Virus record (IMG/VR): IMGVR_UViG_3300046387_000063
Coordinates: 1-44,824 of that record
Reading direction: 5' to 3' (one strand)
Source: a virus
DNA: 44,824 nucleotides
The notes beneath the pieces are model-generated. The model saw nothing but the letters and a program-made list of their open reading frames with translations, was not told the DNA's origin and ran no database searches. Shown here piece after piece: positions 27,649 to 41,458 of this stretch. Numbering within the stretch: the first letter of the stretch is position 1; the number at the start of each line of letters is the position of its first letter. The position numbers and the translations under genes are program-made.

Positions 27649-27803
27649 TGGAAAGTCCTTGTGTTCAAATCTGTAAACTTATAGATAGTGTGTGTATTGG
27701 TTGTTTAAGAACAAGTGAAGAAATAACTATGTGGTCAAAGTACACAGATGAAGAAAGAGAAACTATTATTAAAGAAATTCAATCAAGTCGTTGTCGAGTT
27801 TAA
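27648..27803 (+). CDS. DUF1289 family small cysteine protein
   Basis: 51 aa. Starts at the ATG overlapping the gene 17 stop (TAATG at 27646-27650) and stops TAA at 27801-27803. The sequence carries the DUF1289 pattern: SPCVQIC near the N-terminus, then CIGC, then a LRTSEEITMWSKYTDEER helix. Cys 5, 9, 16 and 19 form the C-x3-C-x6-C-x2-C metal-site spacing. DUF1289 proteins are short, mainly proteobacterial, and of unproven function, with metal or Fe-S binding suspected. Coupling to gene 17 suggests late expression. Its last 35 bases overlap the convergent gene on the other strand. Probably an acquired host-type gene. Confidence 0.8.
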   Translation: MESPCVQICKLIDSVCIGCLRTSEEITMWSKYTDEERETIIKEIQSSRCRV

Positions 27804-28068
27804 TCCAACAATTAGAACAAACTACTTTACATTGATTCATTAATTTATGTACTTGTTTTCTACTTTCGTCATTCGTACCAACTCGTTTCGCTTGTTTACG
27901 AATTTCTACATCATGGGGATAAAGTTTTAAACATACAGTTTCACTTTCTCCACAATGAATACAATGTTCATTATTAAGATGTGTATTCAACCATGCAACT
28001 CGTTTTCGGTAGTTCCTACGAGCTACCTTTTTGATTGTGTCTTTATATTTTTCATAATGTGTTGTCAT
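27769..28068 (-). CDS. HNH-like zinc-binding protein (degenerate), reverse strand
   Basis: 99 aa, the only convincing minus-strand gene here. Residues 1-30 are basic (KKVARRNYRKRVAW). CIHC (36-39) and CSNC (84-87) form a treble-clef-like zinc site. Between them LYPHD (49-53) stands where HNH proteins have their first catalytic His, and LMNQCKVVCSNCWIK resembles the closing HNH segment (usual pattern C-x-x-C-H-R). The final His is replaced by Trp 88, so nuclease activity is doubtful. It may instead be a DNA- or RNA-binding remnant of a mobile HNH gene. A perfect minus-strand TATAAATA lies 5 nt before the ATG. Confidence 0.7.
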   Translation of the reverse strand: MTTHYEKYKDTIKKVARRNYRKRVAWLNTHLNNEHCIHCGESETVCLKLYPHDVEIRKQAKRVGTNDESRKQVHKLMNQCKVVCSNCWIKLDNDLIEFL

Positions 28069-28073
28069 ATGAT

Positions 28074-28081
28074 TATTTATA
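28074..28081 (-). promoter_or_regulatory. Minus-strand late promoter abutting the start codon
   Basis: The plus strand reads TATTTATA, so the minus strand carries an exact TATAAATA followed by ATCAT and then ATG. Only 5 nt separate octamer and ATG, so a T4-like start site would fall at or beside the A of the ATG, with no room for a ribosome site. Confidence 0.6.
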
Positions 28082-35410: not shown

Positions 35411-35418
35411 TATAAATA
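35411..35418 (+). promoter_or_regulatory. T4-type late promoter for gene 23 (TATAAATA)
   Basis: An exact octamer 24 nt before the capsid gene, followed by an AAAAGGAGAAAC ribosome site. Confidence 0.82.
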
Positions 35419-35442
35419 GTAGAAAATTAAAAGGAGAAACAA

Positions 35443-36783
35443 ATGTTTCAAACAGAACATCTACAAGAAAAGTGGTCGCCAGTCCTTCAACACCCTGATT
35501 TACCAGAAATCAAGGATAGTTACAGGCGTGCCGTCACTACAATCATCTTAGAGAACCAAGAGAAAGCTCTTAAAGAAGACAAGAACTTCCTTACAGAAAC
35601 TGCCCCAACATCATTTATCGGTGGTAACGCTGCACTAGATACATGGGATCCAATTTTGATCTCACTAGTAAGACGTTCTATGCCTAATCTTATCGCATAT
35701 GACATCTGTGGTGTACAACCAATGACTGGCCCAACAGGTCTTATCTTTGCAATGAGAGCAAGATTTGCATCTATGGATGGTGCAGAAGCACTTGCAGACG
35801 AGGCAATGCCTGGTAATGCAGATGCATCTAACCAAAACGCTGCTGGTACAATCGGTGGTGGAGATGTTGGTGCAACAGAAACTAACCCTGCTGTACTAAA
35901 CGACAGTCCTGCTGGAACTTATACTAGTGCAACTGGTATGACAACAGTACAAGGTGAGGCACTTGGTGACTCTGGTACAAACGCTTTCGGTGAAATGGCG
36001 TTCTCAATTGAAAAGCATACTGTTACTGCTGTAACAAGAGCTTTAAAAGCTGAGTACACTATGGAACTTGCACAAGACTTAAAAGCAATTCATGGTCTTG
36101 ATGCTGAAACAGAACTTGCAAATATCTTATCTGCTGAGATTCTTGCAGAGATTAACAGAGAAGTTGTAAGAAACATCTACGTTTCTGCCGTAAAAGGTGC
36201 TCAAGTAAATACAACTACTGCTGGTATCTTTGACTTAGACACAGACTCAAATGGTAGATGGTCAGTTGAAAAATTCAAAGGACTAATGTTTGCGATTGAG
36301 AGAGATGCTAACGCTATCGGTCAACAAACTCGTAGAGGAAAAGGTAACATGATCCTTTGTTCTGCTGATGTTGCATCTGCATTACAAATGGCTGGTGTTC
36401 TAGACTATACTCCTGCTCTAAATAACAACTTAAATGTTGACGATACTTCAACAACATTTGCTGGTGTTATGAACGGAAGATACAAAGTATATGTAGACCC
36501 ATATGCTGCTAACGTATCTGCATCACAATACTACGTTGTAGGTTATAAGGGAACTTCCCCATATGACGCTGGAATGTTCTACTGTCCATATGTACCATTG
36601 CAAATGGTTCGTGCAGTTGGTGAAAATTCATTTCAACCAAAAATTGGTTTCAAGACAAGATATGGTATCGCTGCAAACCCATTCCATACTGGAACAGTTG
36701 CTGCTGCAGCTGATGGTGCGATTTCTATCTCATCTGCTACTAACAAGTATTACAGAAAAGTTAAAGTTTCTAACCTTATGTAA
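35443..36783 (+). CDS. gp23: Major capsid protein gp23
   Basis: 446 aa HK97-fold capsid protein, the usual size for marine T4-like phages (T4 gp23 is 521). Markers are the N-terminal EKWSPVLQHPDLPEI, then AALDTWDPILISLVRRSMPN, DICGVQPMTGPTGLIFAMR and, late, an ENSFQPKIGFKTRYGI stretch. FLTE (49-52) matches the gp21 cleavage rule (Leu/Ile-x-Glu), so the mature chain may start at Thr 53. It has its own late promoter and ends 21 nt before a strong terminator, so it is set up for very high monocistronic expression. Confidence 0.97.
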   Translation: MFQTEHLQEKWSPVLQHPDLPEIKDSYRRAVTTIILENQEKALKEDKNFLTETAPTSFIGGNAALDTWDPILISLVRRSMPNLIAYDICGVQPMTGPTGLIFAMRARFASMDGAEALADEAMPGNADASNQNAAGTIGGGDVGATETNPAVLNDSPAGTYTSATGMTTVQGEALGDSGTNAFGEMAFSIEKHTVTAVTRALKAEYTMELAQDLKAIHGLDAETELANILSAEILAEINREVVRNIYVSAVKGAQVNTTTAGIFDLDTDSNGRWSVEKFKGLMFAIERDANAIGQQTRRGKGNMILCSADVASALQMAGVLDYTPALNNNLNVDDTSTTFAGVMNGRYKVYVDPYAANVSASQYYVVGYKGTSPYDAGMFYCPYVPLQMVRAVGENSFQPKIGFKTRYGIAANPFHTGTVAAAADGAISISSATNKYYRKVKVSNLM

Positions 36784-36804
36784 AATACTTAACCAACCTA
36801 AGAG

Positions 36805-36830
36805 AGAGGGGTTTATCCCCTCTTTTTTTT
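36805..36830 (+). terminator. Intrinsic terminator after the capsid gene
   Basis: AGAGGGG and CCCCTCT form a 7-bp stem around a TTTAT loop, followed by an uninterrupted run of eight T at 36823-36830. The stem could extend by a few weaker pairs. It is the only convincing intrinsic terminator in the window and lies 21 nt after the gene 23 stop. Confidence 0.92.
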
Positions 36831-36832
36831 GT

Positions 36833-36840
36833 TATAAATA
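36833..36840 (+). promoter_or_regulatory. Late promoter abutting the start codon (TATAAATA)
   Basis: An exact octamer starting 2 nt after the terminator T-run and ending 5 nt before the ATG at 36846 (TATAAATA-CTAGT-ATG). No ribosome site can fit. The 5-nt spacing equals that of the minus-strand gene at 28068. Confidence 0.65.
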
Positions 36841-36845
36841 CTAGT

Positions 36846-37430
36846 ATGACAACATTAACCTCGCCACTAAACAGACAACCAGATAAGTTGGATTATAGTA
36901 GTCCGACTCAGTTTAGGTTTATGATTAATCAACTACCAAAGGTGCAGTTCTTTACAACTGCAGCTAACATTCCAGATATATCTTTAGGTGAAGCAGTAAT
37001 ACCTACACCATATAAAGACATACCTATTATGGGAGATAAAATTACTTTTGGTAATTTAGATGTGAGTTTTATTGTTGATGAGTACTTAGAAAACTATGTA
37101 TCAATACACAACTGGTTAATAGGTATCGGTTTCCCAAAGAATAGAACACAGTTTAGTTCTTTTAGAAGTGATACCTCAAATAATCCAACATCTGCAAAAA
37201 CTGTATCTACTGACAGAGTGGGTACTGCAACAGCAGATAGAGGAATGTATTCTGATGCAACACTTACAATTCTATCAAACAAAAATAATCCTTTGGTAGA
37301 AGTTCGTTTTTCAGATTTATTTCCAGTATCTTTAAGTGCATTGAGTTATAATAATCAGGCTACAGATGTAGATTATTTGACAGCAGAGATTAGTTTTCGT
37401 TATAAATTATATGAGATAGTGACTTTATAA
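36846..37430 (+). CDS. Tail tube-fold protein (gp3/gp54/gp19-like), tail completion
   Basis: 194 aa. Segments SPTQFRFMINQLPKVQFF, ISLGEAVIPTPYKDIPIMGD, NLDVSFIVDEYLENYVSIHNW and the final LTAEISFRYKLYEI strand are typical of the tail-tube-like fold used by tube (gp19), tube initiator (gp54) and tail-completion proteins. Marine T4-like phages commonly place a gene called gp3 (tail completion and sheath stabiliser) between capsid gene and uvsY, so that name is most likely, but sequence alone does not separate the options. No Shine-Dalgarno precedes it and the late octamer ends 5 nt from the ATG. The next Met (26) lies inside the conserved QFRFMIN motif, so the upstream start is preferred. Confidence 0.85.
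   Translation: MTTLTSPLNRQPDKLDYSSPTQFRFMINQLPKVQFFTTAANIPDISLGEAVIPTPYKDIPIMGDKITFGNLDVSFIVDEYLENYVSIHNWLIGIGFPKNRTQFSSFRSDTSNNPTSAKTVSTDRVGTATADRGMYSDATLTILSNKNNPLVEVRFSDLFPVSLSALSYNNQATDVDYLTAEISFRYKLYEIVTL
37377..37406 (+). promoter_or_regulatory. Sigma70-like promoter before uvsY
   Basis: TTGACA (37377-37382), an 18-bp spacer and TATAAA (37401-37406), 34 nt before the uvsY ATG, inside the 3' end of the preceding gene. The -35 is perfect and the -10 matches 5 of 6. It would let the recombination operon be transcribed before the late phase. Confidence 0.55.
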
Positions 37431-40918: not shown

Positions 40919-41458
40919 ATGGCAAAAGCAAAAGGCGCTCATTATGTAGATAACAAGAAGTTCCATCAAGCAATGATTGATTGGAAAGAGAAATGTAAAG
41001 ATGCAGAAGAAGCTGGAGATGAAGTTCCCCAGATTACTGACTATATTGGTTCATGTTTTCTGAAGATTGCAAACGGACTTTCATATAGACCAAACTTTAT
41101 TAACTACACATATAGACAAGAAATGATATCTGATGGTATAGAAAACTGTTTACAGTACATACACAACTTTAATCCAGAGAAATCTAAGAATCCATTTGCA
41201 TATTTTACACAGATAATCTATTATGCATTTATTCGTAGAATACAGAAAGAAAAGAAACAAACTCATGTAAAACATAGAATGATTGAGAAACAAGAATATA
41301 TGCCATATGTTACAATGGATGGAGATCAAACAAATTATTCTGTAAGTGGTTTTGATATAAATGTAATGGTGCCTGATGAGGCTGTATATAAACCAAAGAA
41401 AAAAGAAACCAAAGATGACCCAAAAGGTCTTGAAAATTTTATGGATACTGACGATTGA
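40919..41458 (+). CDS. gp55: Late sigma factor gp55
   Basis: 179 aa (T4 gp55 is 185), the highly diverged sigma70-family factor that directs host RNA polymerase to TATAAATA late promoters. Matching segments are TDYIGSCFLKIANGLSYRPNF, DGIENCLQYIHNFNPEKSKNPFAYF and IIYYAFIRRIQKEKKQ, the sigma-region-2-like core that binds polymerase and the -10 octamer. The C-terminal tail (ending GLENFMDTDD) fits the sliding-clamp-binding region of gp55. An AAAAAGGAA ribosome site sets the ATG. It heads the 55-47-46-methyltransferase unit behind a perfect host-type promoter. Confidence 0.95.
   Translation: MAKAKGAHYVDNKKFHQAMIDWKEKCKDAEEAGDEVPQITDYIGSCFLKIANGLSYRPNFINYTYRQEMISDGIENCLQYIHNFNPEKSKNPFAYFTQIIYYAFIRRIQKEKKQTHVKHRMIEKQEYMPYVTMDGDQTNYSVSGFDINVMVPDEAVYKPKKKETKDDPKGLENFMDTDD

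Follow-up and report, generated by a model that had tools for sequence, protein, structure and literature searches.

The gp3-like tail completion gene that follows the capsid gene in the 44,824-nucleotide stretch of DNA from a marine T4-like phage analysed here (the window) is predicted to be expressed from a late message that begins at its AUG, with neither a 5' untranslated region nor a Shine-Dalgarno (SD) sequence, and comparison with related phages supports this reading well. The features on which it is based are collected in Table 1. The upstream gene encodes the gp23 capsid protein (Pfam Gp23, E 1e-144) and its stop codon lies at 36783. It is followed by an intrinsic terminator, which ranks first among 16 terminator-like sites in the region and whose stem (36800-36828) has a folding energy of -17.9 kcal/mol (z -3.4). 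After the T run come the two bases GT, the octamer TATAAATA, the five bases CTAGT and the ATG, and reading of the window revealed no SD-like 4-mer between the terminator and this ATG. The preliminary description of the DNA had given the same order of elements and the same lack of an SD, and the sequence confirms it; the terminator that it had noted is also present, but its start at 36805 falls 5 nt within the stem.

The gp3-like reading frame matches PHROG_45 (tail tube/gp3-type, E 4e-34) and is annotated as 'tail completion' in cultured relatives, the closest of which by capsid identity are Pelagibacter phage Mosig (73%), Methylophilales phage Melnitz (72%) and Pelagibacter phage HTVC008M (68%). 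It is barely conceivable that the true start is instead an internal ATG at 36922 (MINQLP), which would give a leader of about 76 nt with a weak SD-like AGG in TTTAGGTTTATG: relatives carry Ser, Gly, Thr or Asn in place of the corresponding methionine, and it is the first methionine together with the RQP..LDY segment that is conserved.

Table 1. Positions in the window of the gp3 junction and of the elements compared with it.
Feature	Position	Strand	Details
HNH-endonuclease-like ORF, 99 aa, predicted leaderless	27769..28068	-	PHROG_3106, E 1.6e-4
Second 5-nt late promoter, TATAAATA-ATCAT-ATG	28066..28081	-	octamer from 28081, ATG at 28068
Capsid late promoter and 24-nt spacer with SD (contrast)	35411..35442	+	SD AAGGAG 35431-35436; capsid ATG 35443
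Intrinsic terminator after capsid gene	36800..36830	+	12-bp stem, 5-nt loop, 8-T tail 36823-36830
T4-type late promoter octamer TATAAATA	36833..36840	+	sequence; enrichment in window; phage-encoded gp55-type sigma factor
5-nt spacer CTAGT, -1 base a pyrimidine	36841..36845	+	length 5 in 69/83 rows; -1 pyrimidine at 50/50 sites
Predicted transcription start, A of AUG	36846..36846	+	sixth base after octamer
gp3-like tail completion protein, 194 aa, without SD	36846..37430	+	ORF, profile match, annotation of relatives
gp55-type late sigma factor	40919..41458	+	PHROG_234, E 4e-64

The window holds 15 copies of the octamer where 5.6 would be expected, none of 100 shuffles has as many, and most copies on the plus strand lie 16-42 nt upstream of SD-led late genes, including those for the capsid and the sheath. 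An octamer enriched before late genes and a gp55-type sigma factor encoded by the phage itself identify these sites as T4-type late promoters. They share with the gp55/gp33/gp45-dependent late promoters of T4 the octamer, the type of sigma factor, the expected start six bases on and the late virion genes served. In T4, roughly one helical turn separates the late TATA box from the transcription start downstream of it, the box beginning at -13 (PMC2988020); +1 would therefore be the sixth base after the octamer, here the A of the ATG. This base is A at 71% and a purine at 80% of 156 SD-led late promoters of related phages; at octamers without a gene the values are 34% and 51%. The usual bacterial start context has a pyrimidine at -1 and a purine at +1. 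All 50 of the 5-nt sites that had not been selected by pattern have T or C at -1, against 45% pyrimidine at SD-led promoters. The start could nevertheless be off by one base, leaving a leader of 0-1 nt.

The start codon itself points in the same direction. Loci with 5-nt spacing that were not fetched by ATG patterns open with ATG in 62 cases and with GTG or TTG in none, which is what a need for a 5'-terminal AUG in translation would predict (PMC4965119; PMC4633059). E. coli ribosomes bind a message that offers no more than such an AUG (PMC4965119). A point against the leaderless reading is that E. coli translates leaderless messages less efficiently than those with a leader (PMC4633059; PMC4965119).

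The preliminary description had named promoter-to-ATG spacing in related phages as a check on a leaderless start, and the relatives bear the proposal out. For this comparison 80 IMG/VR relatives were fetched, giving 83 rows with the window and the cultured phages included. The distance from octamer to ATG is exactly 5 nt in 69 of the 83 rows, despite widely varying terminator and spacer sequences. The arrangement that it had regarded as speaking against the idea, a longer spacer with a ribosome site, does exist in the other 14 rows, all of which have an SD, but it is confined to a nested clade and isolated cases: 12 have a longer leader of the TATAAATAGTATTAGAGGTAAATAAATG type, one (L080) has a different upstream gene and no octamer, and the last is Melnitz. 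These SD-led relatives are a natural contrast to the 5-nt junctions, and the nested clade indicates that leaderlessness is dispensable for gp3. The gp3 tree requires at least 4 changes between the two states. Two 5-nt junctions (L071, at 4973, and L072) are nested within the SD-leader clade as a possible reversion, so that the switch may run both ways.

Some junctions depart from the common form in other respects. In one gp3 clade (L067, L073, L078, L081 and L082) the octamer has decayed to CTAAATA with the 5-nt spacing still exact, and the gp3 gene of HTVC008M (L086, near 25820) likewise combines CTAAATA with exact 5-nt spacing, as a variant late promoter. In Melnitz (L089:19968-20040) the 5-nt ATG starts a mini-ORF of 8 codons (MKRENICL), which overlaps the SD-led start of gp3; it is possibly a relic of a leaderless start, with translational coupling.

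The 5-nt spacing also stands out as a class. When the distance to an ATG opening an ORF of at least 60 aa was plotted for gp3-type loci and cultured genomes, the distribution was bimodal, with 27 cases at 5 nt (none with an SD), none at 6-7 nt, and nearly all cases at 15 nt or more with an SD. A control with 30 permuted octamers predicts 0.5-0.7 cases at 5 nt. Among the matches listed for IMG/VR pattern loci, an ORF of at least 60 aa begins at the ATG in 100 of 117 at 5 nt (85%), 38 of 107 at 6 nt (36%) and 22 of 108 at 4 nt (20%), a comparison of the fraction of listed matches that open ORFs rather than of total counts. The associated probabilities (Poisson 6e-8 for the nine of the 27 5-nt cases that are not gp3; Fisher p 7e-15 and 9e-24 for 5 nt against 6 nt and 4 nt) overstate the number of independent events, because several of the sample sets are related by descent. 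The rates at 6 nt and 4 nt may include start sites wobbling by one base. Chance as the origin of the spacing is ruled out by the control octamers and by the 4-nt and 6-nt patterns. Small groups of T4-like genes with 6-nt or 4-nt spacing do occur in IMG/VR (for example a baseplate-wedge-like group beginning MASLFDTLQ, and gp2-like genes), and these may be leaderless with the start shifted by one base.

The leaderless late message put forward in the preliminary description is thus supported by the conserved spacing and by the absence of an SD at 5-nt sites as against its presence at sites with longer leaders, and further by the pyrimidine at -1, the exclusive use of ATG and the A-rich predicted +1 of SD-led promoters. 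It was also weighed against read-through. The capsid and gp3 genes lie on the same strand with a short intergenic gap, and terminators can leak, so gp3 might be expressed mainly from the capsid transcript on a leadered but SD-less RNA, with the octamer as a minor promoter. Such expression would require neither the exact 5-nt spacing nor the -1 pyrimidine, however, and a strong terminator is retained before the octamer in nearly all relatives while its sequence changes. Moreover, the window holds a second TATAAATA exactly 5 nt before an ATG, on the minus strand, at an HNH-endonuclease-like gene situated between the terminase and tail sheath genes, which shares the spacing without a same-strand gene just upstream. 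All 35 distinct junctions in relatives of this gene keep the 5 nt, with a spacer of variable sequence. Read-through as the main source of gp3 is accordingly very improbable.

A further reading, unlikely but less so than read-through, and one that could add to a leaderless start, is control of the kind known for T4 genes e and soc, in which the AUG of read-through RNA is buried in a hairpin, with the promoter sequence forming the 5' arm, and only RNA begun at the late promoter is translated. There is precedent in T4 e, soc, 49 and I-TevI (PMC3014915). The read-through RNA of the window is predicted to pair the AUG, and over 44 gp3 junctions the mean unpaired probability is 0.18 in read-through RNA against 0.80 in leaderless RNA. 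The pairing is unspecific, however: at 142 sites with 5-nt spacing, native and swapped downstream sequences give 0.34 and 0.36 (p 0.14), the TATA...TATG itself pairs weakly, and several relatives lack a stem. A conserved start-hiding hairpin was rejected, since the structure predicted in the window does no better than the swapped controls across these sites. T4 e, soc and 49 do resemble the present junction in having a promoter that directly adjoins the start of translation and sets late RNA apart from read-through RNA (PMC3014915), but late e messages keep their ribosome binding site, and the hairpin of the window type is not conserved beyond chance.

The leaderless arrangement has a restricted distribution among cultured phages. 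Matches to ATAAATA-N5-ATG fall on annotated CDS starts in 9 of 9 cases in HTVC008M (gp2, gp25, gp48, the tape measure, CsgF and others), 7 of 8 in Mosig and 3 of 4, plus one mini-ORF, in Melnitz. By these annotated starts the 5-nt class is common to cultured SAR11 and OM43 phages. T4, syn9, S-PM2 and P-SSM2 jointly have one annotated start among 7 matches (in P-SSM2, 1 of 2), with none among the matches in T4, syn9 and S-PM2, and KVP40, phiM12, S-PRM1 and Bellamy have no match at 5-nt spacing. T4 therefore differs from the phages described here, as no annotated CDS was found 5 nt after its octamer and neither of its two pattern matches marks a CDS start. A general T4 feature is ruled out, since T4, KVP40 and the cyanophages are essentially without the class. 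Both Mosig (L083:9932-10141) and HTVC008M (L086:41228-41431) encode a ribosomal protein bS21 of their own; this protein of the 30S subunit is located near the anti-SD and is possibly linked to SD-less translation.

Taken as a whole, the following scheme is very probably correct. The abundant capsid message would stop at the terminator, and a late RNA polymerase composed of the host core and the phage gp55-type sigma factor would bind TATAAATA beyond it. The first base of the RNA would then be the A of the gp3 start codon, at the sixth position after the octamer, and the 5'-terminal AUG would be recognised by ribosomes, by analogy 70S ribosomes with initiator tRNA. In T4-like phages of the SAR11/OM43 type, the gp3 gene would belong to a class of late genes expressed without leaders, many of them for low-copy virion proteins, with the capsid, scaffold, sheath and tube genes retaining SD leaders.

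It had also been suggested that a leaderless start keeps the dose of this protein low next to the capsid, and here the outcome is mixed. By PHROG class, the 122 proteins of the 5-nt set are rich in the DNA end protector gp2 (18), in members of the gp3/tube family (16) and in proteins of the baseplate wedge, and the 93 of the SD set in tube cap (12), major head (8), scaffold (7) and sheath proteins. By orthology in the relatives, none of 150 gp23, gp18, gp19 and gp22 genes is of the 5-nt type. The 5-nt share is 50/75 for gp3, 18/34 for gp2, 6/24 for gp25, 4/17 for gp20 and 4/26 for gp48, positive rates that are inflated because sampling favours gp3 and 5-nt sites; the zeros are not inflated. 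The high-copy zeros are consistent with the low-dose idea without proving it. On the other side, some low-copy genes are SD-led too: gp53 (0/25) and gp54 (0/32) are never of the 5-nt type, and since both are low-copy in T4, low copy number alone is not decisive. It is quite possible, though somewhat less likely than not, that in SAR11/OM43-type T4-like phages promoter-to-AUG spacing acts as an expression switch, with an exact 5 nt giving leaderless low-copy parts and SD leaders giving high-copy ones, so setting the ratios of virion proteins, and that lineages interconvert by small indels.

Leaderless messages are already known from phages (PMC4633059; PMC4965119). The junction described here shares with the leaderless mRNAs of lambda cI, P2, Tn1721 and mycobacteria a 5'-terminal AUG, here predicted, and the lack of an SD; unlike them, it belongs to a recurrent class, whose members lie at an exact distance from a single type of promoter and are largely virion genes. 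To our knowledge, the phage examples described so far are only scattered ones (lambda, P2), and among the open-access papers searched none was found that describes T4-like phages with leaderless late genes. In a published survey of SAR11 myophages, the approaches applied to cyanophages reportedly failed to locate late promoters (PMC7029224); a promoter lying right up against the AUG would be a plausible cause, among others. In the T4-like phages of SAR11 and OM43 bacteria, leaderless late genes would form a systematic class that can be recognised from the DNA sequence by itself, and HTVC008M and Mosig are cultured phages in which leaderless translation and its bearing on virion protein dosage would be testable.
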